Source: a virus. Taken from it: DNA of 27,505 bases. Position numbers and translations under genes: made by a program. The stretch lies in IMG/VR virus record IMGVR_UViG_3300032213_002847, positions 1 through 27,505 of that record; one strand, given 5' to 3'. The notes below the pieces were generated by a model that did not search any database, was not told where the DNA came from, and was given only the letters and a program-made list of their open reading frames with translations. The first letter of the stretch is position 1. Each line of letters opens with the position of its first letter. Below, in pieces: positions 5,514 to 24,278 of the stretch.

Positions 5514-5915
5514 ATGGCCGCAGGAAGATACTCTTTTGTAATTGAACAAGGTGCTACAGTTAATTTTCAAATAGCTTACACAGATTCTAACGGAACCCCA
5601 GTTGATTTAACAGGATATCAAGCTAGAATGCAAATTAGACCTAATGTTGGGTCAAATGATGTATATATTACATTATCATCTAGTTTAGACCCATGTGGAA
5701 CTGGCTTAAATTTAAGTGGATCCAATTCAATTAACCCACCTACTTCAGGAACAATAGGAATATATATTTCTGCTGTATCTTCTTCTCAACTTGATTTTGC
5801 TCAAGGTGTATACGATCTAGAACTTGCCACAGGAAGTGGAGATTGTTATGTAGTAACACGTATTTTAGAGGGAGAAGTACGATTATCTAAAAATGTAACT
5901 TTAGGGAGTTTTTAA
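5514..5915 (+). CDS. Small beta-rich structural protein upstream of tail fibre
   Basis: This 133-aa protein opens with a pattern seen in small phage tail or baseplate domains: FVIEQGATVNFQIAYTDSNG, then PVDLTGYQARMQIR (about 33-46), with alternating hydrophobic residues to the end (GVYDLELATG, then RILEGEVRLSKNV). This suggests a single beta-sandwich similar in style to N-terminal domains of baseplate upper proteins (BppU-like); that match is from memory and weak. Its stop codon shares one base with the start of the giant fibre gene (TAATGG), so translation is probably coupled. It may be an adaptor or an N-terminal partner of the fibre. Confidence 0.7.
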   Translation: MAAGRYSFVIEQGATVNFQIAYTDSNGTPVDLTGYQARMQIRPNVGSNDVYITLSSSLDPCGTGLNLSGSNSINPPTSGTIGIYISAVSSSQLDFAQGVYDLELATGSGDCYVVTRILEGEVRLSKNVTLGSF

Positions 5916-8900
5916 TGGCTAATAACATAAATATTAACCAAAATAACAATTCTGTATCTTTACAGGACAATAATAAAAACATTATCATCACCGATAATAA
6001 TACAGGAACTTCTGTAAATATAACTCAACCTACTACAGATATTATTACAGTATCTACTCTTGGCCCACAAGGTTTACAAGGACTTCAAGGTCCTTCAGGT
6101 TCACAAGGCCCTTCAGGTTCACAAGGCCCTTCAGGTTCACAAGGCCCTTCAGGTTCACAAGGCCCTTCAGGTTCACAAGGTCCCCAAGGTCCTTCAGGTT
6201 CACAAGGTCCCCAAGGTCCTTCAGGTTCACAAGGCCCCCAAGGTCCTTCAGGTTCACAAGGTCCCCAAGGTCCTTCAGGTTCACAAGGTCCAGCAGGTGA
6301 AATACCTGATACAGGTTCATTTGTTTTAACATCTTCATTTAATGCTTTTACTGCATCATATTATACAGACAGTGCATCATTTGAAACACAGATATTAACA
6401 AATAGTTCAAGTATTTCATTACTTTCTGGTAGTTTTGAAACAACTAGTGGTTCATTTTCTACACGCATAACTGATTTAGAAAACTTTAGTTCATCACTGG
6501 ATGCAACCTTTGCAACTGAAGCTGAATTAAACGCAGCTACGGCTTCTTTAAGTGCAAGTATAGCATATTTAAGTTCAAGCTTTGAAACATTTAGTGGATC
6601 ATATAATACAGGTTCATTTACAGGATCTTTTATTGGAGATTTAACGGGAACCTCCTCATATGCTATAAGTGCATCTTATGCTATAAGTGCTTCATACGAG
6701 ATAAATTATGAAACATCTTCTTCATATGCTGAAACAGCAAGCATAGCTTATACTGCCTCATATGTAGAAAACGCTCAAACATCATCATATTATGATGAAA
6801 CAGACCCTGTATTTGTATCTAAAAGTGGTTCATTTGCAACAACAGGCTCAAATACATTTAATGGCAATCAAACCATTTCAGGTACTTTACATCAATCTGG
6901 AACGTTTTACCCTGACCAAATTGATTGGTTTAGTAGTAGTATAGGGTATGATACTGGTTCTTATATACTAACAACTACTGCTAATGGTTTAACAACATAT
7001 GCTAATTATCAAGATATAGCAACTATAATAAACAGTGGAGTAGTTCTTACATCTTCATTCAATAACTACACAGGTTCAAACACCAGCCAATTTGCAGGAA
7101 CAGCTTCATACGTTGAATTTGCTCAAACTGCCTCAAATATACTAGGTGGCAAATCAACACATATACCATATTTTATTACAGATACAACCCTTGCAACTAG
7201 TTCTCTATACCAATCTGGTTCCACAACTGTTGTAATCAACCAAGATAATGCCACAGAAGCCAACCCAGAAGCATTATATGTTTGGCAACCATCAACAAGT
7301 TCATTTAACGTAATAAGCGGTAAAGGTAATTTAAATAATTACCTACAATTAAATATCCAAAATACAAATAATGGTGATAGCGGTTCATCAGATGTAGTTG
7401 CTACAGCAAACAATGGTGATGAAGATAGTAACTATATTGACATGGGTATTAATGGTGAAAACTATGCCCAAAACTTTATTGGTAATGCTAATGATGCTTA
7501 TCTATACTCTACCGGTAACCGTTTACATATAGGAAATGTATCAAATTTCCCCATACAAATATTTGCTGGCGGCAGTGATGTTGATATACATAATAAACTT
7601 GAATTAAACCCTAACAACCAACATTTAATGTCAGGTTCATTAGATGTTAGTGGTAGTATAGTAGCATTTTCATTTACTGGATCATTACAAGGTAATGCTA
7701 CAACGTCAACAACTGCAGGTACAGCATCATATTCAACAACATTGGGGGCTAGTTTATCTCAACCAGCAAACAACCAAGTTAGATTATTGAATAGTGTAGG
7801 TGGTACTTTAAGTACAGTTACAGTTAACAACGTAACATCAGCATCACATGCAGATAATGCATCAACAGCAAATTATGCTACAACTGCAGGAAATGGTGGT
7901 GTGACTCAATTAATAGCAGGATCAGGAATTACATTAATCCCAGCCGGAGGAACAGGAGCAGTAACAGTAATATCCACTGGTGGTGGTGGTGTAACTATAA
8001 TTTCTGGTTCACTTGTAACTGGATCATTTGTTAATACAACATCATATACTTTTAACCACAACTTAAGTACTAGAACACCTATCATAACAGTATTTGATTC
8101 AAATTACAATCAAATAATCCCAGAAAATATACAACTTGTAGATACAGCAAGTGCTATAATAACATTCCCAACCCTAGAGAGTGGATTTGCAATTGGTTCA
8201 ACTGGTGGAACAACAGGAACAGCTTTATCGTCTTCATATGCTCTACTTGCAGAATATGCCAATACAGCATCATTTTACCAAGAAACTGATCCCGTTTATA
8301 TAGCACAAAAACCTACATTAGCAACAACTGGTTCAAATATATTTAAAGGTAACCAAACAGTAACTGGTAGTTTATTAATAACGGGTTCCCTAACAGTATC
8401 AGGTTCAAATACATTTACAAATATAGGACCTGCTTTATTTACTGGTAGTGTTAACATAACTGGTTCAACAACTCAAACTGGTGACAATACATTAATAGGA
8501 AATACAATATTAAGTGGTAGTATTGGTATTAGTGGATCCAGTACAATACAAGGAACCACTACAATGAGCGGTTCATTAAATATATCAGGCTCTACAACTC
8601 AAACAGGAAATAATACTTTAATAGGTACTACTACATTAACAGGTAGTATACAAGTAGCTGGAAATATTATACCACAAATATCAAGCTCATTTGATTTAGG
8701 ATCATTAACAAATCCATGGAGATCAATATACGTTCAGTCTGGATCAATCAGCATACAATCAGATATTCCAGGTGGTATCCCAGCAACAATATCAAACGCA
8801 AATGGAAACGTTACTTTTGCAGGAGCAGGTTTTCAATTAAAAAGCGGATCGTTTGTTCCATTTGAGATATCATCATCTGCAAGAACAATAATAAGAGTGC

Positions 8901-10123
8901 CTGACATACCTGCTAACGATGTTGGGGGGTTAAGTATTATAGGTAGCTCAACTGGAGTATACCAGGGTGTTACAAATGCTGGTGGTTTATTACATCTTAC
9001 TAGTAACGATGGGCAAAGCTCTAGAATTACAAGTGATGCTTACGGAATCAACTCAGTTGTAGCATATGTAGGAAGAAAAGCAAGAGGAACAGCAGCAAGT
9101 CCTCTACCAGTACAATCAGGTGATACTCTAACAAGAATAAGTACAGTAGGATGGACGGGACCTGAATATGGATTTTTAATGTCTGCTAGTTCAACAATAG
9201 CATCAACAGCTATAGAAACGGTAGCACTTGAAAATTTTACAACATCTAGCTTTGGTACTGGACATACTTTTTACAATGCCCCTTTAGGTGGTACTATAAG
9301 AACTTTATCAGCTCAAATAGATACAACCGGTATAACAATACCAACAAGCAGTAGATTTTTTGGTACTGCAAGTTGGGCTGAAAATGCTTTAACTGCATCA
9401 TATGTTACAACAGCTCAAACAGCAAGTTATGTTTTAAATGCAATTAGTGCTTCATATGCTACAACAGCTTCTTATACATTAAGTAGCTCATTTGCCTCAA
9501 CAGCATCATATGTCAACCCACTTATTCAAAATGTAGTAATAACTGGATCTTTAAAAGTATCCGGATCACTAACTGAAATAGGAAATACAGTATTATCAGG
9601 TTCACTAACGCTAAGCTCAGGATCAGCATTAAACATAAATGACGGCTTCTATGTAAACGGTAATAAGCAATTTAATTACGGACAATTTAGCAGCACAACA
9701 ACCCAATCAGGATCAGCAGACACGGCATACTCAATGACGTTTAATACAACTGATTTCTCACAAGGAATAAGCTTAGTAAGTGGTAGTAGATTAACTGTAA
9801 CTAACACTGGGTTGTATAATGTTCAATTTTCCTCTCAGCTACACACCACGGCTAATCAAGCAGTTGATTTTTCAATTTGGTTTGCTATGACAGGTTCTAA
9901 TATTGCTAATTCAAACACTGATTTTACCATTGAAAAAATAGCTGGTGGCGGGTTTGTGGTAGCAGCTTTAAACTTTTTAACCCAAATAACAAGTGGTAGT
10001 TATGTAGAGCTAAAATATTCAAAAACAACAGCTCAAGGTCAATTACAAGCAAAAGGAACACAATCTACACCAACCAGACCAGCAACCCCATCAGCAATAG
10101 TAACAATAACACAGATAGCATAA
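5915..10123 (+). CDS. Large tail-fibre-like adhesin with collagen-like and C1q-like parts
   Basis: This 1402-aa protein looks like a trimeric fibre. Residues 50-130 are 27 uninterrupted Gly-X-Y triplets (GPSGSQ units, then GPQGPSGSQ units), as in collagen-like phage fibres. Next comes a long Ser/Thr/Ala-rich shaft with many TASYA/SASYA motifs and repeated TGS-I-SG-hairpin segments (about 780-930). The element FDLGSLTNPWRSIYVQSG, near residue 930, is common in phage fibres. The last ~150 residues (from NINDGFYVNGNKQFNYGQF) end in a jelly-roll-like domain resembling C1q/TNF heads, with GLYNVQFSSQLHTT as a typical strand pair; this is the likely receptor-binding tip. There is no signal peptide. 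It overlaps the preceding stop by one base, and the next fibre-like gene starts one base after its own stop. Confidence 0.8.
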   Translation: MANNININQNNNSVSLQDNNKNIIITDNNTGTSVNITQPTTDIITVSTLGPQGLQGLQGPSGSQGPSGSQGPSGSQGPSGSQGPSGSQGPQGPSGSQGPQGPSGSQGPQGPSGSQGPQGPSGSQGPAGEIPDTGSFVLTSSFNAFTASYYTDSASFETQILTNSSSISLLSGSFETTSGSFSTRITDLENFSSSLDATFATEAELNAATASLSASIAYLSSSFETFSGSYNTGSFTGSFIGDLTGTSSYAISASYAISASYEINYETSSSYAETASIAYTASYVENAQTSSYYDETDPVFVSKSGSFATTGSNTFNGNQTISGTLHQSGTFYPDQIDWFSSSIGYDTGSYILTTTANGLTTYANYQDIATIINSGVVLTSSFNNYTGSNTSQFAGTASYVEFAQTASNILGGKSTHIPYFITDTTLATSSLYQSGSTTVVINQDNATEANPEALYVWQPSTSSFNVISGKGNLNNYLQLNIQNTNNGDSGSSDVVATANNGDEDSNYIDMGINGENYAQNFIGNANDAYLYSTGNRLHIGNVSNFPIQIFAGGSDVDIHNKLELNPNNQHLMSGSLDVSGSIVAFSFTGSLQGNATTSTTAGTASYSTTLGASLSQPANNQVRLLNSVGGTLSTVTVNNVTSASHADNASTANYATTAGNGGVTQLIAGSGITLIPAGGTGAVTVISTGGGGVTIISGSLVTGSFVNTTSYTFNHNLSTRTPIITVFDSNYNQIIPENIQLVDTASAIITFPTLESGFAIGSTGGTTGTALSSSYALLAEYANTASFYQETDPVYIAQKPTLATTGSNIFKGNQTVTGSLLITGSLTVSGSNTFTNIGPALFTGSVNITGSTTQTGDNTLIGNTILSGSIGISGSSTIQGTTTMSGSLNISGSTTQTGNNTLIGTTTLTGSIQVAGNIIPQISSSFDLGSLTNPWRSIYVQSGSISIQSDIPGGIPATISNANGNVTFAGAGFQLKSGSFVPFEISSSARTIIRVPDIPANDVGGLSIIGSSTGVYQGVTNAGGLLHLTSNDGQSSRITSDAYGINSVVAYVGRKARGTAASPLPVQSGDTLTRISTVGWTGPEYGFLMSASSTIASTAIETVALENFTTSSFGTGHTFYNAPLGGTIRTLSAQIDTTGITIPTSSRFFGTASWAENALTASYVTTAQTASYVLNAISASYATTASYTLSSSFASTASYVNPLIQNVVITGSLKVSGSLTEIGNTVLSGSLTLSSGSALNINDGFYVNGNKQFNYGQFSSTTTQSGSADTAYSMTFNTTDFSQGISLVSGSRLTVTNTGLYNVQFSSQLHTTANQAVDFSIWFAMTGSNIANSNTDFTIEKIAGGGFVVAALNFLTQITSGSYVELKYSKTTAQGQLQAKGTQSTPTRPATPSAIVTITQIA
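6062..6304 (+). repeat. Collagen-like Gly-X-Y tandem repeat in fibre gene
   Basis: The DNA holds five nearly identical 18-base units (encoding GPSGSQ) followed by four 27-base units (encoding GPQGPSGSQ), flanked by less regular triplets. Near-identity at third codon positions indicates recent expansion by slippage or recombination, so copy number probably varies between relatives. Confidence 0.9.
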
Positions 10124-10803: not shown

Positions 10804-12252
10804 ATGGCAAACGAATTTATAGCTCGCAATGGTCTTATTGCACAAAATAACTCAATAGTAACAGGTTCATTAACTGTAACTAATGGAATAACAGGAAGTT
10901 TAAGTGGAAGTGCAACAAATGCTGTAAGTGCTTCTTTTGCATTAACTGCTTCATATGTTCAAACAGCACAAACTGCATCTTATGTTTTAAATGCTGTATC
11001 AAGTTCATACGCTTTAAGTGCTTCATATGCCCCATCATCAATACCTTCAGGTCCGTGGGGTATATCAAATTCAAGTGGAGTTTATACTTACTATGCTACA
11101 TTATCAGCTTCAATAGCTGCCGCTACATCAGGTCAAGTAATAGAAATGTTTGCTGATGTAACAGCTACATCAGTTGCACCATTAAAACCAAACGTAACCA
11201 TACAAGGTAACGGCCACACTTACACCTACTCTGGAAATACAGGAGATGTATTTGTAACACCACCAGGAGCAGGAACGTATACATACTATTTTAATAACAT
11301 AAATATAAACAGAGCTAATACGGCAACTTCAACCGGTACAATTTTTTCAGGTGATGGTACTGGATTTACTACTGCATTAAATTTTAAATGCACTGCTACA
11401 AGAGTTACATATACAACAACAACGGGAACAGCACCAATTGTTAAATCAACTGGATCTTTTGGTATTTATGGTTGGTCATTTGATGATATTGATGTTATAG
11501 GAAATACATCAGGCTACTTGTTTGACACCACTTTTGCAGTTAATAATATTAAAAATAGCCGATTAGAAAATACTGGAACTGGTGGATGTATAACAACCCC
11601 TAACATTACAGGTGGGTGTTTTTATGAAAATAACTATATAAAAACTGTTTCTGGAACAGGAATATTTTGCAATTATGCTTCAGATGTTATAAGAAATTGC
11701 ACAGGTATATCTTCAACAGGAATAGCATTTGGAGGACAATCAGGAGCATCAGCATATGATTCTTTTGCTTTTTCAAATACATCAAGAGCATTTAGTGGTT
11801 TAGTTTGTTATAATTGTACAGGACAAACAACCACAGGAAATGCTTTCTATCAAACAACAGGTTATAATTGTACAGGTAGATCTACTACTGGATTTACGGT
11901 AAGACCATTTTCGGCTATGTCTAATTTTTACAATAGTTCATTTTATTCATCTGGAAATATTACTGTTTATGATGTAGACTATGGTGCATCTTTTTATAAC
12001 TGCTCTATAATTACAGACTATAATAATGCCGCTGGTCATGCCATATCAATTGGCCCATCATCAGGTAATCCTGCATTTGTAAATAATTATATTCAAGTAG
12101 CTAATACTTCGTCAAACTGTATTAGAGGCACAAACCCATTTACTGGTGTAGTAACAAATACAGTATTTAAAGGAGCAACAACTCCAATAAATGCAAATGT
12201 TACTTTATCTGCAGTTACTATTAATACAACTTATAATAATATCACAATATAA
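10804..12252 (+). CDS. Fibre/tailspike-like protein with probable right-handed beta-helix
   Basis: This 482-aa protein has a short N-terminal shaft (about 1-80) with the motif run ALTASYVQTAQTASYVLNA, nearly identical to a stretch of the large fibre. After it, GQVIEMFADVTATSVAPLKP followed by NVTIQGNGHTYTY is the typical entry of a pectate-lyase-like right-handed beta-helix. The body repeats short strand-turn units rich in Asn, Gly and aromatic residues (NNININRAN, YNCTGQTTTGNAFYQTTGYN, FYNSSFYSSGN, FYNCSIITD), as in phage tailspikes. No catalytic residues can be assigned by eye, so glycan binding is as likely as glycan cleavage. The gene overlaps the next one by one base. Confidence 0.75.
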   Translation: MANEFIARNGLIAQNNSIVTGSLTVTNGITGSLSGSATNAVSASFALTASYVQTAQTASYVLNAVSSSYALSASYAPSSIPSGPWGISNSSGVYTYYATLSASIAAATSGQVIEMFADVTATSVAPLKPNVTIQGNGHTYTYSGNTGDVFVTPPGAGTYTYYFNNININRANTATSTGTIFSGDGTGFTTALNFKCTATRVTYTTTTGTAPIVKSTGSFGIYGWSFDDIDVIGNTSGYLFDTTFAVNNIKNSRLENTGTGGCITTPNITGGCFYENNYIKTVSGTGIFCNYASDVIRNCTGISSTGIAFGGQSGASAYDSFAFSNTSRAFSGLVCYNCTGQTTTGNAFYQTTGYNCTGRSTTGFTVRPFSAMSNFYNSSFYSSGNITVYDVDYGASFYNCSIITDYNNAAGHAISIGPSSGNPAFVNNYIQVANTSSNCIRGTNPFTGVVTNTVFKGATTPINANVTLSAVTINTTYNNITI

Positions 12253-12575
12253 TGGATACTTATAAAATAGACATATTAAAACTTTCTGATACTTTAGTAT
12301 CTCAAAATTTAAAAACACAAGAGCAGAAATATTTTACAATCTCTGAATTAAACGGGGAACTATTAAAATCATATAATAATTTTAATTTATTAGTTAACAG
12401 TAAAATAACTATTAAATACAACCAAGTATTTGTAGGTGAGGAAGTTGTAAAAAGATTTGTAGGTATAGATTTAGAAGGGATTAATGTAGGTGATTTTCAA
12501 GAAGTACTTTATGATGATTTAACCAATCAAGAAAAAACAATATTTGATAATTTTTACAATTCATTCTCCAGTTAA
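12252..12575 (+). CDS. Small hypothetical protein coupled to beta-helix gene
   Basis: This 107-aa, mildly acidic protein has no family I recognise. It looks folded, with an N-terminal DTYKIDILKLSDTLVSQNL segment, a central hydrophobic part (NFNLLVNSKITIKYNQVFVG) and a C-terminal helix-like end (DLTNQEKTIFDNFYNSF). Its ATG shares one base with the stop of the beta-helix protein (TAATGG), which implies coupled translation. Small genes directly behind a fibre gene are often fibre assembly chaperones or tip adhesins; that is only a positional guess. Confidence 0.6.
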   Translation: MDTYKIDILKLSDTLVSQNLKTQEQKYFTISELNGELLKSYNNFNLLVNSKITIKYNQVFVGEEVVKRFVGIDLEGINVGDFQEVLYDDLTNQEKTIFDNFYNSFSS

Positions 12576-15377: not shown

Positions 15378-17906
15378 ATGTCAACAACTAAAATTGTCTT
15401 AAATAGACAGTCCGACTTAATTTTAGACAACGCACAGATCACCGCTCCGGTTGGTATCGTGGTAGCGGATATCGATGGTTTAGAATCAGCGATTACCTCC
15501 ATTGATACTAATGTATCTGATGCAATGTCAACTGAAGTATCTAACCGCGTAGCTGGTGATGCTTCTGTAGCTGCTGATTTATCTACTGAAACAGCAAACC
15601 GTGAAGCAGCAGTATCTGCTGAAGCTTCAAATCGTGTTGCTGGTGATGAATCATTAGCTGCAAACTTATCTACTGAAGTAGCAAACCGTGAAGCAGACGT
15701 TGATGCTGAGGAATCTCGTGCTATTGTTGCTGAAACTTCATTACAAAACAACATCGATGCTGAAGCATCTTTAAGAGTTGTTGGTGATGAGTCAGTAATG
15801 GCTGCAATGTCAACTGCTGATGCTGCTTTGACTGCTGATTTGTCAACTGAAACTGCACGTGCAGAATCAGCTGAGGCTTCATTAAACACTAAAGTTGATT
15901 ACGTTATCTCTAACGTTGACCCAGCTGCTTTAGATTCATTAACTGAAATCGTTACTGCATTCCAAGACGCTGATGGTGATTTAGATGGTGCTATTACATC
16001 TTTAGCTACTGCTGCTACAACTGCATTGGATAACGAAGCATCTATCCGTTTAGCTGCTGATCAATCAATTGCAGGAGATCTTTCTTCTGAAATCGCTGAT
16101 AGAGAAGGTGCAGTATCTTTAGAAGAAGCTGCTCGTATCTCAGGTGACGCTTCTGTAACTGCTGATTTATCAACTGAAACTGCTAACCGTGAAGCTGCTG
16201 TATCAACTGAGGCTTCAACTCGTTTAGCTGCTGACCAATCATTGGCTTCTGACTTATCAACTGAAACATTAAACAGAGAAAATGCAGTATCTGCTGAGGC
16301 TTCAACTCGTTTGGCTGCTGATAACAGTTTAGCTACTGATTTATCAACTGAAACTTCATCTCGTATTGCTGATGTTGATGCTGAAGAATCTCGTGCAACT
16401 AGTGCTGAGGCATCTTTAGAAACAGCAATGAACGCTGCTGATTCAACTGAGGCTTCTATCCGTTTAGCTGCTGACCAATCTTTGGCTACTGACTTGTCTG
16501 CTGAAACATCTGCAAGAATCGCTGACGTTGATGCTGAAGAATCTGCTCGTATTGCTGCAGTAAGTGCTGAAGAGTCTGCAAGAGTATCTGGTGATGCTTC
16601 TATTGCTGCTGATCTATCTACTGAAACATCTGCAAGAATCGCTGACGTTGACGCTGAAGAATCACGTGCAATGTCTGCCGAAGCAGTATTAACTAACGAC
16701 TTGTCTGCTGAAGTTTCTAACCGTATCGCTGATGTTGATGCTGAAGAATCAAGAGCAATGAGTGCTGAGTTAGTATTAACTAACGATTTATCTACTGAGG
16801 TTGCCCGTGCAGAATCTGCTGAAACTTCTATTACAACTGCAATGGATGCGGCTGATTCAGCTGAAGCATCTACACGTTTATCTGCTGACCAATCTTTGGC
16901 AACTGCAGTATCTGCTGAAGCATCTCGTATTGATGTTATCCTTGATGGATCTGATGTTGATTTAGATCAATTTGCTGAAATCGTTGATTTCGTTAACGGA
17001 ATTGATTTAGAGAACGATAACGCATTGTTAAGTGCTGTAACTTCAATTGGTTTAGATATCAATGCTGAAACTTCAAATCGTATCGCTGATGTTGATGCTG
17101 AAGAATCAAGAGCAATGAGTGCTGAGTTAGTATTAACTAACGATTTATCTACTGAAGTATCTAATAGAATTGCTGATGTTGACGCTGAAGAATCTCGTGC
17201 AATGTCTGCTGAAGCAGTATTAACTTCTGATTTGTCTACTGAAGTAGCAGACAGAGAGGCTGCTATCTCTGCTGAAGAATCTGCACGTGCATCTGCTGAT
17301 GCTTCTTTGGCTGCTGATTTGTCAAACGAAATCGAATCACTTGGTGATGTTGATGGTGCTACAATTAGTCTAGATACTGCAACAAACACTATCCGATTGA
17401 AAGAAGCAATTGCTGCCCCAGCTTCTGGACAGTACACTTTTAATAGTGACGTTGAAGTTAGCGGTGTATTAACAGTAGACGGAGTAGACGTAATGGCAGA
17501 AATTTCTTCTGAAATTTCACGTGCTGAAGCTGCTGAAGATTCAATCGCTACTGAATTGTCAACTCAAGTTTCTTACTTGATCTCAAACATTGACGTAACT
17601 GAAATCGATTCATTCTCTGAAATCGTTGAAAACTTGTCAACTGAAGTATCAAGAGCGGAAAGTGCTGAATTGTCATTAGCTGATGATTTTGCTAATATCT
17701 ATTTTAGAAAAACAACTGTGAACGAAACAGCTAATGGTTCAATTGCTGAATTTACATTTGGTGATACACTTAGAACAGGTTCACAAGCAGTTTACTTGAA
17801 TGGTCTATTACAAGACGCTGGTGATTACACAATTACTACAACTTCAGTAACATTTGCTACAGCTCCACTTGCTGGTGATAAAGTTGCTGTTTACGGTATG
17901 TATTAA
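15378..17906 (+). CDS. Long coiled-coil fibre protein
   Basis: This 842-aa protein is dominated by Ala/Ser/Glu-rich repeats of the form DLSTEVSNRIADVDAEESRA, MSAEAVLTNDLSTE and relatives, which should form a long trimeric coiled coil. Three related non-repeat elements interrupt it near residues 174, 518 and 731: YVISNVDPAALDSLTEIV, VILDGSDVDLDQFAEIV and YLISNIDVTEIDSFSEIV. The last ~67 residues (776-842) are an LNGLL-type beta module with VYLNGLLQDAGDYTI, similar to the double module at 14258. Codon choice is capsid-like: Ile is nearly always ATC/ATT and Arg often CGT, unlike the ATA- and AGA-rich fibre genes nearby. That hints at a high-copy virion protein, such as a head fibre, whisker or decoration protein. 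A terminator follows. Confidence 0.78.
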   Translation: MSTTKIVLNRQSDLILDNAQITAPVGIVVADIDGLESAITSIDTNVSDAMSTEVSNRVAGDASVAADLSTETANREAAVSAEASNRVAGDESLAANLSTEVANREADVDAEESRAIVAETSLQNNIDAEASLRVVGDESVMAAMSTADAALTADLSTETARAESAEASLNTKVDYVISNVDPAALDSLTEIVTAFQDADGDLDGAITSLATAATTALDNEASIRLAADQSIAGDLSSEIADREGAVSLEEAARISGDASVTADLSTETANREAAVSTEASTRLAADQSLASDLSTETLNRENAVSAEASTRLAADNSLATDLSTETSSRIADVDAEESRATSAEASLETAMNAADSTEASIRLAADQSLATDLSAETSARIADVDAEESARIAAVSAEESARVSGDASIAADLSTETSARIADVDAEESRAMSAEAVLTNDLSAEVSNRIADVDAEESRAMSAELVLTNDLSTEVARAESAETSITTAMDAADSAEASTRLSADQSLATAVSAEASRIDVILDGSDVDLDQFAEIVDFVNGIDLENDNALLSAVTSIGLDINAETSNRIADVDAEESRAMSAELVLTNDLSTEVSNRIADVDAEESRAMSAEAVLTSDLSTEVADREAAISAEESARASADASLAADLSNEIESLGDVDGATISLDTATNTIRLKEAIAAPASGQYTFNSDVEVSGVLTVDGVDVMAEISSEISRAEAAEDSIATELSTQVSYLISNIDVTEIDSFSEIVENLSTEVSRAESAELSLADDFANIYFRKTTVNETANGSIAEFTFGDTLRTGSQAVYLNGLLQDAGDYTITTTSVTFATAPLAGDKVAVYGMY

Positions 17907-17929: not shown

Positions 17930-17960
17930 ACATCGGGGGAGAAATCTCCCGGTGTTTTTT
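17930..17960 (+). terminator. Rho-independent terminator after coiled-coil fibre
   Basis: An imperfect ~11-bp stem (ACATCGGGGGAGA / TCTCCCGGTGT, one bulge and one wobble) with an AAA loop runs into TTTTTT. A GTG at 17952 lies inside the 3' arm and is not a credible start for the next gene. Confidence 0.85.
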
Positions 17961-17993: not shown

Positions 17994-18179
17994 ATGGCAA
18001 ATAAAACAAGTATAAAAGGCGTTAACACAGGAGGAGGAACCCCACAATGGGATGGCGGAACGATTTATAATATTGGTGCTGTTGTAACATTTGAAGGACA
18101 AATTTGGTCTTGTATTCAATATGCACCGTCTGGTTATGGCCCATTTGGTGGATATATTGATGTTTATTGGACTTTATAA
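17994..18179 (+). CDS. Small carbohydrate-binding-like protein
   Basis: This 61-aa protein starts at ATG 17994 (MANKTSIKG), since the longer GTG frame from 17952 begins inside a terminator. Its core, PQWDGGTIYNIGAVVTFEGQ followed by IWSCIQ, has the W-x(4)-Y-x-x-G-x-x-V pattern of small chitin-binding type 3 (CBM5/12-like) domains, with aromatic residues able to stack on sugars and a terminal YWTL. There is no catalytic domain and no signal peptide, so it would be a free or virion-bound glycan-binding unit. Its first residues (TSIKGVNTGGG) resemble the start of the next protein ([11 protein letters not shown]), which suggests a common docking tag. Confidence 0.65.
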   Translation: MANKTSIKGVNTGGGTPQWDGGTIYNIGAVVTFEGQIWSCIQYAPSGYGPFGGYIDVYWTL

Positions 18180-18259: not shown

Positions 18260-19495
18260 ATGCCAATTAACGTAAACGGAAAATTAAGAATCAAAGGTGC
18301 TACCACAGGCGGAAACGGTGGAGGTGGTGGAACAGACTTTATCTCAGTATGGGATACAACACTAGGTGATGGAAATCCTTCCATTACACTACCATTAGTT
18401 GCTTCTGGTAACTACAACTTTAGTGTAAACTGGGGTGATGGAAACACTGATACTATCACAGCATATGATCAAGCAGAAGTAACTCACACTTATGCAACAG
18501 GAGGAATATACACAATTACAATCACAGGAACAATTGATGGATGGTCATTCGCAAGTGCTGGAGATTGTGAAAAATTAACTTCAATCACAAACATCGGACA
18601 ACTTAAACTAGGAAATGAAGGTGGATGTTTTGAAGCATGTTCAAACTTAACAACAATTGGAGGAACATTTGATTTAACAGGTGTAACTAATATGGGTGGT
18701 ATGTTTGCTGATTGTGGTTTATTAACCTCAGTAAATGGAATTGGGTCTTGGGACACTTCAAATGTAACTGATATGAGTGGTATGTTCTCTGGTACAATAT
18801 TCAACCAAGATATTAGTGGATGGAATGTTTCTTCTGTAAATGATATGAGTAGCATGTTCTCTGGTACAATATTCAACCAAGATATTAGTGGATGGAATGT
18901 TTCTTCTGTAACTGATATGGGTGCTATGTTTGTGGGAGCAACATCATTCAATCAAGACATTAGTGGATGGGATGTTTCTTCTGTAATTAATATGTTTAAG
19001 ATGTTTGTGGGAGCAACATCATTCAATCAAGACATTAGTGGATGGAATGTTTCTTCTGTAACTAATATGAATCAGATGTTTGTGGGAGCAACATCATTTA
19101 ACCAAGACATCAGTTCATGGAATGTTTCTTCTGTAACTAATATGGGTAGTATGTTTTCTGATGCAACATCATTTAATCAACCATTAAATTCATGGAATGT
19201 TTCTTCTGTAATTGATATGAATAATATGTTTTATAATGCAACATCATTCAACCAAGACATTAGTGGATGGGATGTTTCTTTAGTAACAGATTTGAGTGGT
19301 TTTATGGCTTTTAAATCAACAGCAGATTATTCATACTATGACAATCTCCTAAATGCTTGGTCATTGTTAACTCTACAAAATGGAGTAACTTGGGATATGG
19401 GTACAATTGAATATACTGCCGCTGGAGCAACAGCAAGACAGGATATCATTGACAACTACTCATGGACAATTACTGATGGTGGATTAGCTGCTTAA
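18260..19495 (+). CDS. BspA/DUF285 repeat protein with PKD-like domain
   Basis: This 411-aa protein has the full layout of flavobacterial BspA-family surface proteins. A PKD-like domain (about 38-92) contains [12 protein letters not shown] and [17 protein letters not shown]. Seven DUF285 repeats of 24-25 residues follow (181-354), each built on [16 protein letters not shown]. The usual family ending is present ([20 protein letters not shown], then WTITDGG). It lacks the signal peptide and type IX sorting domain that the bacterial versions carry; a Gly-rich N-terminus ([14 protein letters not shown]) replaces them and may attach it to the virion. Capture of a host surface-protein gene for use as an adhesin is the likely origin (inference). 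A terminator follows. Confidence 0.8.
18800..19321 (+). repeat. DUF285 tandem repeat, seven units of 72-75 bases
   Basis: Units begin at codons 181, 205, 230, 255, 280, 305 and 330. The first two are 72 bases long, the rest 75. Long stretches are identical between units (for example GATGGAATGTTTCTTCTGTA), so the array expanded recently and copy number is likely unstable. Confidence 0.88.
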
Positions 19496-19520
19496 TTTAA
19501 TTAACAACCAAAAACAAAGA

Positions 19521-19547
19521 AAGGAGACTCAAAAGGTCTCCTTTTTT
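19521..19547 (+). terminator. Terminator between convergent transcripts
   Basis: An 8-bp perfect stem (AAGGAGAC / GTCTCCTT) with a seven-base loop is followed by TTTT on the plus strand. On the minus strand the stem is followed by TCTTTGTTTTT, so it may also stop the converging glycosyltransferase unit. Confidence 0.85.
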
Positions 19548-19566
19548 CTATGCATATTAAATTAAT

Positions 19567-20751
19567 TTACTTATATAAATTAGTCATTGGATCATACACT
19601 AATCCATCATTTCCACCATTAAATACACCCTCAATTAAACGATCATACGTTTCAATAACATCGGTATTTTCAATATGGTAACGTTGTAACACAACATCAT
19701 TGCGTTGATTATAACCATCAATATCCTTATCGTGTTCTGTTAAAATATAGTTCAATGTTTTAGAGGCCTCAACCGTATCTGAACCTTCATAATAGTATCC
19801 CAAATCTTTACACATTGGAGCATTATGTAATACTGGATACCCTAAATAAGCAGCATCTAAATACAGATAATTTAATGGATTCAGCAACTGATGACAAATC
19901 AACACATCCAAATGTTGAGTTAACATGTAGGCTGTTTGGTACCGTGATTCAGCACTTATTTTACCTTCCCTAAACAAATCAAACGTGTTGATAATTGACA
20001 TGAACTCTTTATGTTTTGAGACTGCCGTTCCATTTGTAATACGAAGTTTTTCAATGTGTTTTCTACCTGTAGTAGTACGATATGATTCCTCTGCAATCAT
20101 GGCTGGTATTAAACAAAACTTAACAATGTTAAGATTCGGCTCCATTATACCTAAAATTTTCTTTTCTTTTGTGTTGTCGTACTGCCAATCTTTTGTATAT
20201 TTTCCGGATTTGAAACCTTTGTGAATATCTCTAACCGACTCGAATAGAAACTTTTCAGACCAGATAAAAGGAACTGCAAAGGCATTTGTACGATACAGTG
20301 TTTTATACAACCCAGAATTGACTTCATCTTGTTGCGGTACATACCATATTTCATCATATTGTTTTTCATATTGAAATTTTTTATCTTCACTTGGACGGAA
20401 CAAAATATTTTCCATATGTATTACATAGTTGTTTCCACATTTATAAGATACAACTTTTTTGTTTGACCCGGATTTTTTAAATGTTTCAAGTTGGTAATCA
20501 AATATTTGAGCACCCATTACAATTAATAGATCCATTTCCAAAAACTTATCGTTAAAGTAGTGTATATCTATTCCATCTAGATAAGATGGTTTTTCTGTAA
20601 AATCTACGTTCATTGAATTTAAAATACAAACATCGTATTTTTTCTCTGAATTTTTTAACAAATGTACAAGCATCAAAACATTTTGTTTGATACCGTTTGT
20701 CCAAATTGATTCTTTGTTGTCTTTTAAGCCAAGTGTAATTCCAATTTTCAT
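19567..20751 (-). CDS. DUF2827-type glycosyltransferase-like protein
   Basis: This 394-aa protein resembles the DUF2827 family, which has a GT-B-like glycosyltransferase fold. Supporting stretches are the N-terminal MKIGITLGL and IWTNGIKQNVLMLVHLL (16-32), LLIVMGAQI (75-83), ILGIMEPNLNIVKFCLIPAM (199-218) and the C-terminal NPLNYLYLDAAYLGYPVLHN (291-310), the usual donor-site side of the family. The sugar and acceptor cannot be told. Phages use such enzymes to modify DNA, virion proteins or host surface glycans. Its start overlaps the stop of the J-domain gene by four bases (ATGA), so the two form an operon. It is one of only two minus-strand genes in the window and looks like an inserted cassette. 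Confidence 0.75.
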   Translation of the reverse strand: MKIGITLGLKDNKESIWTNGIKQNVLMLVHLLKNSEKKYDVCILNSMNVDFTEKPSYLDGIDIHYFNDKFLEMDLLIVMGAQIFDYQLETFKKSGSNKKVVSYKCGNNYVIHMENILFRPSEDKKFQYEKQYDEIWYVPQQDEVNSGLYKTLYRTNAFAVPFIWSEKFLFESVRDIHKGFKSGKYTKDWQYDNTKEKKILGIMEPNLNIVKFCLIPAMIAEESYRTTTGRKHIEKLRITNGTAVSKHKEFMSIINTFDLFREGKISAESRYQTAYMLTQHLDVLICHQLLNPLNYLYLDAAYLGYPVLHNAPMCKDLGYYYEGSDTVEASKTLNYILTEHDKDIDGYNQRNDVVLQRYHIENTDVIETYDRLIEGVFNGGNDGLVYDPMTNLYK

Positions 20752-21311
20752 ATGCTGTTTCCGTGTTTATTTATAAATTGATCTATTAGTTTTTGTTTTT
20801 CTTCTTCTGTTTGAGCATGAGCATATAACCATATAAAAGAAGATTCAATAGATTTGAGCTCATCCCGTTTTTTGTTTATACGTATTTTCAAAATATCTTT
20901 ATCTTCAATATCTATTGAATGAGATATATTTAATTTAGAACATATTTCATATAAAACAAACAGATTAAATTCATCTGCCGCTACTGTAGCCTGCATATAT
21001 AAATCAGTATGCTCATCTGTTTTTGCTTTATCTGGATGAGTTACTTTAGCAATTTCACGATATAATTTTTTTACTTTATCCTTTGTAGTTTTATCCACTG
21101 TAGATGGATCTATTTTATCCTTTTTTGGTTTTTCTTGGGGTTGAGTTGGGGGTGGAGGAGGAGGTGTATCTCCACGTGTATTTCGTATTTTATTTAAAAA
21201 TTCTTCCCTATTACTTTCAACAATTTCCCTTTTATATTCTTCATCTAGTAACAAAAAACTATATTCTTGTAATAATTTTTGTACCTCAAGTTGCTCTAGT
21301 CGTTTGCTCAT
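20748..21311 (-). CDS. J-domain (DnaJ-like) protein
   Basis: This 187-aa protein has a charged coiled-coil-like N-terminus (1-45), a Pro-rich linker (50-58) and then a J-domain core: KDKVKKLYREIAKVTHPDKA (77-96), with the invariant HPD at 92-94. J domains stimulate the ATPase of Hsp70 (DnaK) through this motif. Here the domain is internal and no Gly/Phe-rich or zinc-finger regions follow, so it is a specialised J protein and not a general DnaJ. It could recruit the host DnaK to a phage substrate such as the linked glycosyltransferase or a fibre (inference). The ATG at 21311 faces the gp15-like gene across a 40-base divergent gap. Confidence 0.75.
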   Translation of the reverse strand: MSKRLEQLEVQKLLQEYSFLLLDEEYKREIVESNREEFLNKIRNTRGDTPPPPPPTQPQEKPKKDKIDPSTVDKTTKDKVKKLYREIAKVTHPDKAKTDEHTDLYMQATVAADEFNLFVLYEICSKLNISHSIDIEDKDILKIRINKKRDELKSIESSFIWLYAHAQTEEEKQKLIDQFINKHGNSI

Positions 21312-22649: not shown

Positions 22650-24278
22650 ATGGCAAATATTTTATCTAAAGTTAATATTCTTACAGGAAATACCGTTCAA
22701 GACTATCATGTTACACAATCAATAGATGCTTTTACAGGAACTGAAGCATATGACATAACATTATCCGGTTCTTTTACCCTAACAGGACCCCTTGATGTAA
22801 CCGGAAATACCAGAATTTCAGATTCTTTAATTGTAGAAGGTTTAACAGATACACCTCAAACTAATGTAGTAACTATAGATACATCTACAGGTCAATTTTA
22901 TTACACATCATCAACAGATTTAGATATAACTGCTAATACTGCATCTTATGCTTTAACAGCTTCATACGTAGATCTAGTTGCTGGCCCTAATGTTACCATC
23001 AACCAATCAGGAACTTCATTTGTAATCTCAAGTTCAGCAGGATTTCCAAGTGGAAATGACACAGAAATTCAATTTCAAACTGGAAGTAGTGAATTAGGTG
23101 GAGATTCTTCATTTAAATTTATTTACTCTTCCCAAAGTTTCCAACAAGGAGAAAACGTAACAGTTAATAGTAATTATTCACATGCCCAAGGAAAACAAAC
23201 AATAACAGCAGGAGACCATTCCCACGCTGAAGGATTTCTTTCTATATCATCAGGTTCTTTTTCCCACGCTGAAGGAAGAGGTGCTATATCTCGAGGAAAT
23301 TTTTCACATGCTGAAGGGTACCAATCTATTTCTACTGGAGATTATTCACATGCCGAAGGATATCAATCTACCTCCCCAGGTATGTATTCACATGCTGAAG
23401 GATATCAAACAACATCTTCCGGTGATTACTCACATGCTGAAGGTACAAGCACAATCTCAACAGGAGACTTCTCACATGCTGAAGGTAGAAGTACAACCGC
23501 TACTGGAGATTACTCACACGCTGAAGGTAGAAATACAATTGCTTCTGGTTCTCATTCACACGCTGAAGGAAGTAGTACTTTATCTTTAGGAACATATTCA
23601 CATGCTGAAGGTCAATCTACTGTATCAATAGGATTTGCTTCTCATGCTGAAGGTACTCAAACAAATGCGGGAGACGATTTTGCTCATGCTGAAGGTCAAT
23701 TAACTCAAGCTTTAGGAGTAGCATCTCATTCTGAAGGTTATGCTACAATTGCATCTGGCTCTAACTCACACGCTGAAGGTACTCAAACAAATGCAAATGG
23801 AGCTGCATCTCATGCTGAAGGAATAGATTCAACCTCAGTAGGAATATCTTCTCATGCTGAAGGTAATACTACATATGCTGGAGGAAATTTTTCACATGCT
23901 GAAGGATCATACACTTCAGCTTCTGGACTATCATCTCATGCTGAAGGATCCTTTACAACAGCTTTAGGAAACTATTCACACGCTGGTGGTTTAAATACAG
24001 TTGCCTCTGGGGCATATCAAACAGTAGTAGGGCAATATAACACTCAAAATGACACTACTTCATTATTTGCTGTAGGAAATGGTAATGGAGGTACTCGTTC
24101 TACTGTATTTAAAGTTTTATCCCAAAACCCACTTTCGGGTTCAATAGTAGTTCAAACCCAATCAATTGCACCCGGTTGGACAGGAGAAGAAGGAGAAATA
24201 GTACCTGTAAAAATTGGTGGAAGTTGTTATCTATATGTTTTTATAGGAGGAACCTGGAAATCATCATCATTATCATAA
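22650..24278 (+). CDS. Adhesin-like protein with twenty SHAEG repeats
   Basis: This 542-aa protein has three parts. The N-terminal shaft (1-176) carries TASYALTASYV and a TNVVTIDTSTGQFYY module also found in the protein at 10125. Residues 177-456 are twenty 14-residue repeats with the core SHAEG, followed by nine residues usually containing a Gly four from the end (for example SHAEGYQSISTGDY). This periodicity and the S-x-A-x-G core match the head repeats of trimeric YadA-like adhesins (Hep_Hag type), which stack as a left-handed trimeric beta-roll. The C-terminal end (457-542) is a small domain with VVGQYNTQND and GGSCYLYVFIGGTW. There is no membrane anchor, so it should be a virion fibre. 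Its place between the sheath terminator and the sheath genes is unusual for a fibre gene. Confidence 0.8.
   Translation: MANILSKVNILTGNTVQDYHVTQSIDAFTGTEAYDITLSGSFTLTGPLDVTGNTRISDSLIVEGLTDTPQTNVVTIDTSTGQFYYTSSTDLDITANTASYALTASYVDLVAGPNVTINQSGTSFVISSSAGFPSGNDTEIQFQTGSSELGGDSSFKFIYSSQSFQQGENVTVNSNYSHAQGKQTITAGDHSHAEGFLSISSGSFSHAEGRGAISRGNFSHAEGYQSISTGDYSHAEGYQSTSPGMYSHAEGYQTTSSGDYSHAEGTSTISTGDFSHAEGRSTTATGDYSHAEGRNTIASGSHSHAEGSSTLSLGTYSHAEGQSTVSIGFASHAEGTQTNAGDDFAHAEGQLTQALGVASHSEGYATIASGSNSHAEGTQTNANGAASHAEGIDSTSVGISSHAEGNTTYAGGNFSHAEGSYTSASGLSSHAEGSFTTALGNYSHAGGLNTVASGAYQTVVGQYNTQNDTTSLFAVGNGNGGTRSTVFKVLSQNPLSGSIVVQTQSIAPGWTGEEGEIVPVKIGGSCYLYVFIGGTWKSSSLS
23178..24017 (+). repeat. Twenty 42-base repeats encoding SHAEG units
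   Basis: Each unit is exactly 42 bases with no insertions. The core (TCACAYGCTGAAGG) is highly conserved and the remaining positions vary, so the array is older than the DUF285 and collagen arrays. Departures from the core are SHAQG (unit 1), AHAEG (13), SHSEG (14) and SHAGG (20). Confidence 0.9.

Follow-up and report, generated by a model that had tools for sequence, protein, structure and literature searches.

Organization of the locus

The DNA analysed here, which we call the window, is a viral fragment of 27,505 bases (IMG/VR record IMGVR_UViG_3300032213_002847). The contig is T4-like. A gene for a 411 aa protein of the DUF285 family is located at 18260–19495 on the plus strand, and around it lie genes for a gp21-type head maturation protease, gp23, PhoH, a head-tail adaptor and the tail sheath. 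Thus, the earlier placement of this architecture inside a phage structural region holds. The gp23 capsid protein is 59% identical to that of Flavobacterium phage immuto and 49% identical to that of Microcystis phage Mel-JY01; the host would be a member of the Bacteroidota, probably of the Flavobacteriia.

The DUF285 gene is part of a slot between two recurrent flanking genes. The upstream boundary is a gene for an 842 aa protein (15378–17906, plus strand) with a repetitive STEVxxR region and a conserved C-terminal part (..YLNGLLQDAGDYTI..KVAVYGMY), a homologue of which flanks the slot in related phages; it is called fibre-like solely because proteins annotated as phage tail fibres match it weakly. 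A hairpin search placed a terminator-like hairpin between this gene and the slot (17935–17959, plus strand). It is followed by a gene for a 61 aa CBM5/12 protein (17994–18179, plus strand; Pfam CBM_5_12, 27.9 bits, cut-off 26.2) and then by the DUF285 gene. Another such hairpin (19520–19549) lies where the DUF285 and DUF2827 genes converge; it was scored on the minus strand, and direct reading shows a T run on the plus strand, too. In the window the two-gene cassette of CBM5/12 and DUF285 is hence bordered by terminator-like hairpins on either side. The downstream boundary is formed by the DUF2827 gene (19567–20751, minus strand; Pfam 331.7 bits, cut-off 25), which has the same position in related phages and adjoins the slot in many IMG/VR phages; no DUF2827 was found in records of cultured phages. 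Together with a DnaJ-like gene it occupies the opposite strand within the structural region (19567–21311).

Architecture of the DUF285 protein

The open reading frame, which starts with ATG, is real and complete, and the Gly-rich N-terminus, PKD-like domain, DUF285 repeats and family-type C-terminus named in the preliminary description are all present. On the plus strand, a KLRIKG peptide (18281–18298) is followed by a flexible Gly-rich linker (ATTGGNGGGGG, 18299–18331), a PKD-like beta-sandwich (residues 27–93, 18338–18538), the DUF285/TIGR02167 repeats (18680–19309) and a C-terminal cap (19310–19483) with helices at residues 357–367 and 387–400, ending in WTITDGG. This cap (YDNLLNAW...) is common to phage and cellular relatives. 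Membership in the repeat family is clear from PF03382 (278 bits, E = 7e-84, cut-off 25) and from TIGR02167, the PARCEL 26-residue repeat, which matches in eight stretches with 153 bits (cut-off 30). The PKD_4 score of 20.1 bits lies below the Pfam cut-off of 27, and therefore we use the name PKD-like on account of fold and motif alone; a WGDG and an H.Y pair are invariant in this region in an alignment of 18 sequences.

An AlphaFold2 model (mean pLDDT 89.7, pTM 0.84) predicts a PKD-like sandwich, confident at residues 27–93, plus an LRR-type solenoid, and leaves residues 1–23, which comprise the tag and linker, disordered (pLDDT below 50). Foldseek gave no significant match in the PDB (nothing below E 0.03), and by sequence search no meaningful solved relative was found (best E 0.018). 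A second structural aligner returned LRR ectodomain chains with Z scores of 14–19, among them the Bacteroides protein 4fs7.

With the BspA-like or DUF285 (PARCEL, TIGR02167) surface proteins of Bacteroidota and other microbes the protein shares the PKD-like domain, 25-residue repeats, C-cap, LRR-type solenoid and variable repeat number. What sets it apart is the lack of a signal peptide and of a T9SS tail and the presence of a Gly linker and a KLRIKG tag that is specific to phages. In flavobacterial homologues whose complete N-termini were read, a signal peptide precedes the PKD-like domain by a few residues, and a T9SS-like C-terminal tail was recognized by eye in five sequences (L062, L070, L079, L082, L088). 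In the phage protein no signal peptide is visible on reading the sequence, residues 1–23 being Gly-rich without a hydrophobic stretch; its end, LAA, lies three residues past ITDGG, without a T9SS sorting domain by eye. The proposed replacement of the sorting signals by a Gly-rich N-terminus is thus borne out as to position, but this N-terminus is not mere filler, as it holds a short tag common to unrelated proteins. A missing signal peptide would be expected of a virion protein that is assembled in the cytoplasm.

The repeats had been described as nearly identical at the DNA level. This applies to exact runs of 58 nt (18782/18854) and 45 nt (18926/19001), but not to the 25-residue units as a whole, which average 57% DNA identity and reach 89% at most (in this register one unit out of eight is misplaced by three residues). 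The suggestion that the length of the repeat region can change agrees with a comparison among related phages, in which the number of units ranges from about 6 to 17. PARCEL elements are dyad-symmetric (palindromic) coding repeats that were found with MEME on motifs (Roske 2010). A simple inverted-repeat search of the repeat DNA gave one distant 15-nt pair only; the criterion of Roske 2010 rested on MEME motifs.

A six-residue peptide on unrelated proteins

Loci of related phages were gathered with two genes as bait, the CBM gene and the flanking DUF2827 gene. Among their 653 distinct ORFs the strict pattern KLR[IV]KG occurs 26 times, compared with 0.03 expected by shuffling, an expectation that overstates independence because many of the occurrences are related by descent. 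A looser form occurs 29 times: 13 copies are close to the N-terminus and 9 to the C-terminus (25 aa or less in each case), 6 are located at internal junctions or linkers, and one is unrelated. The bodies that carry the tag are PKD-DUF285, CBM_5_12, LRR and Laminin_G_3 proteins, plus four without a Pfam match. DUF285, CBM, LamG (L092, as KLRIRG), LRR (L093) and unknown (L105, L109, L115, L140) bodies have it at the N-terminus. In a number of LRR proteins (L102, L107, L108, L110, L112, L115) it stands at the very C-terminus, and in fusions of LRR and CBM (L090, L091, L093, L116) it marks the junction. In L006 a DUF285 protein and a CBM5/12 protein of 64 aa (L006:4069–4263, 33.7 bits) have an identical tag-bearing N-terminus of 13 residues. 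The latter is a relative of the small CBM5/12 protein of the window, in which the tag has diverged to KTSIKG (18003–18020); we count this against docking by the tag.

Tagged genes are nearly always located between the fibre-like gene and the DUF2827 gene. When 21 phage records were scanned over their whole length (2.1 Mb), 23 out of 23 codon-pattern matches were tagged genes. As far as flanks are visible, 22 of them occupy the slot or agree with such a location; the remaining one (L129) is outside, upstream of the fibre gene. Scans of IMG/VR for the tag yielded L130 and L140 as the only new tagged loci; further hits (L136, L138, L141, L146) were dismissed as chance matches in other phages. The tag was absent from the fetched ORFs of cellular homologues, and a text search of open-access papers for KLRVKG or KLRIKG gave no phage report.

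The codons of the tag vary (TTA, CTA, CTT and CTC for Leu; AGA, CGT and CGA for Arg) while its residues are constant. Hence it is the peptide and not the DNA that is conserved, and a role of the tag as a DNA site for recombination is disfavoured for the same reason. On several unrelated bodies the core of six residues is kept while the flanks diverge (VNSGGG, VGQINP, ATTGG). The DUF285 body of the window recurs in L112, where it carries KLRVKGVGQIG, different from the tag region in the window, and where the adjacent LRR gene has KLRVKGVGQLN. The tags of one genome tend to match across bodies (p = 0.013, based on six pairs only).

In the non-empty slots for which both flanks were available (L102, L105, L107, L108, L110, L112, L115 and the window) every adhesin-type gene is tagged, and the untagged genes resemble, by eye, those for enzymes or for a small membrane protein. 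Genes resembling sulfotransferases or glycan enzymes (by eye) stand beside the tagged adhesins at L107:6957–9270 and L110:10249–12072 (minus strand). The same flanking genes enclose an empty slot in L103 and L106; therefore, the content of the slot is not essential, which, like the position of L129, speaks against our proposal below. In L113 and L118, which have more distant DUF2827 genes, the slot proteins are untagged.

Proposed function

In the arrangement that we propose, the DUF285 adhesin would be displayed on the virion of the T4-like phage. The N-terminal KLRIKG peptide on its Gly-rich tether would dock it to a virion part, for which the fibre encoded just upstream is the first and most likely candidate (compare gp37/gp38); the PKD-like domain would act as a spacer, and the LRR-type solenoid would present a variable binding face for the host surface or a polysaccharide. 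Related phages would retain the tag and swap the body (DUF285, CBM5/12, LamG, LRR and others) within the slot. As the slot keeps the tag and exchanges the body, the binding part could be changed without rebuilding the attachment site. Virion presence, docking by the tag, the identity of the partner and receptor binding are what we infer from this pattern. That the DUF285 protein is a tag-docked virion adhesin, and an exchangeable body in the slot of a T4-like Bacteroidota phage, appears rather probable to us, and use as a virion ligand, as put forward in the preliminary description, is plausible and the best reading. More tentative, at somewhat less than an even chance, is the general proposition that KLR[IV]KG serves this phage lineage as a universal docking tag. 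Located at the N- or C-terminus or between two domains, it would attach adhesion folds of unrelated kinds to the virion for a plug-and-play display of receptor-binding parts.

T-even tail-fibre adhesins of the gp38 type are encoded just downstream of the fibre gene and possess a Gly-rich part and an exchangeable specificity module. The DUF285 gene resembles them in its location downstream of a gene that is fibre-like by weak matches, in the Gly-rich part and in the exchangeable module. In contrast to the gp38 type, unrelated folds here carry a common terminal peptide of six residues and not a conserved attachment domain; no gp38 family was among the Pfam, PHROGs and NCBIfam matches. Encapsulin cargo-loading peptides are short terminal peptides on a flexible linker, are carried by unrelated proteins and are thought to dock to the shell. 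The phage tag is likewise short, on a flexible linker and shared by unrelated proteins, with docking being putative; it differs in sequence and system and in its position, which may be N-terminal, C-terminal or interdomain.

Of the deposited phage records, 114 gave DUF285 matches. The same repeat family is present in Aeromonas phage D3, Klebsiella phage N1M2 and the Aureococcus anophagefferens virus, with matches mostly over the repeats only. Purified particles of the latter, a giant virus (AaV), contained two DUF285 proteins (PMC7507832), so DUF285 proteins in virus particles have a precedent. The PhoH-to-sheath interval of immuto, the region equivalent to the slot, encodes LamG-like proteins (by eye) that are annotated as 'structural protein'. 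Our literature search found no virion proteomics for immuto, which is not mentioned in a 2020 paper on Baltic Flavobacterium phages, nor any proteomics for this phage group.

The protein family is already known; what is new, and the part worth pursuing, is the shared terminal tag. Host-range change in phages is driven by the exchange of receptor-binding modules, and recombination inside conserved fibre domains is the usual explanation. The occurrence of one terminal tag on unrelated adhesins in one slot suggests plug-and-play swapping of such parts. If this is true, a tag of six residues that works at either terminus would show how wholly unrelated folds get exchanged, and adhesins of uncultured phages could be recognized by it from sequence. 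KLR[IV]KG is a concrete and testable candidate for an attachment motif.

Alternative explanations and origin

The DUF285 protein could be a virion adhesin that is attached in another way, with the tag as a neutral relic of the interdomain linker in an ancestral LRR-linker-CBM protein, left over after this protein was broken up and its pieces recombined. This would account for the location of the tag between LRR and CBM in the fusions, and the identical 5' leaders on paralogues in L005 and L006 show that gene starts have undergone recombination recently. Drift would be expected of a neutral linker, however, whereas the core is held with synonymous changes on several unrelated bodies with diverged flanks, and we consider a relic unlikely, though with some chance of being right. 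The proteins of the slot might also act inside the cell or on release by lysis, for instance on host polysaccharide or in a block of superinfection, the tag then being a signal for intracellular localization or processing. The lack of a secretion signal on the DUF285 protein, the DUF2827 and DnaJ-like genes without assigned role that adjoin the slot on the opposite strand, and the presence of DUF285 in many unrelated phages are in line with this. Yet the bodies (CBM5/12, LamG, PKD-DUF285) are of types that bind outside the cell, their genes lie in a structural neighbourhood, and a missing signal peptide is expected for a cytoplasmically assembled virion protein; an intracellular role is, in our judgement, quite improbable.

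An origin from the host was suggested in the preliminary description, which took the protein for a captured host adhesin that points to the host lineage, and regarded nearest relatives consisting of phage proteins, with no bacterial nesting, as an outcome speaking against it. A recent capture from present-day flavobacteria, with reuse as a ligand, would explain why the domain order equals that of flavobacterial secreted proteins, and a relative is present in 110 of 299 genomes of the Psychroflexus family. The best flavobacterial matches are only about 50% identical, though, and in a tree of the PKD-like domain, built on 109 columns only, the window falls into an all-viral clade (7 rows, support 99/94). 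Around it is a mixed set of 18 rows with archaeal, actinobacterial and few flavobacterial sequences, while the main flavobacterial clade is separate. So only phage proteins are among the closest relatives, one half of that outcome, but cellular rows do occur in the wider set; the nesting of the phage clade among cellular proteins appears weakly resolved, and one single viral clade was not rejected in a topology test (p-AU 0.22). With the nearest cellular rows taxonomically scattered, a recent capture is very unlikely. For the same reason, that is the mixed set around the viral clade and the main flavobacterial group elsewhere, the DUF285 protein is no marker of the host lineage, which is better indicated by the capsid protein and its similarity to immuto. 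A PKD-DUF285 body with 65% identity and an untagged start (MAIQIAISNAVGSRSRSTSTP) was seen at L003:5938–7086, in a different phage setting with a GroEL-like gene on the contig.

Further modular proteins

At L118:10580–17628 (minus strand) three adjacent proteins have the common start MTQxxVGWR on partly different bodies. One of these bodies (VDADAQAFI..) recurs with a KLRVKG tag in L140, and for this reason MTQxxVGWR may represent a second tag.

Two other proteins of the window contain repetitive motifs: a 1402 aa protein (5915–10123) with a collagen-like GPSGSQGPQ tract (Pfam Collagen, 46 bits) and a 542 aa protein (22650–24278) with SHAEG repeats of the YadA-head type (Pfam YadA_head, 40 bits). 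Furthermore, the C-terminal part of the protein encoded at 10804–12252 recurs in L003 (7217–9427) behind a different N-terminus, and the same small gene follows in both cases (window region 10804–12575). This pair adds a further exchange between head and body.
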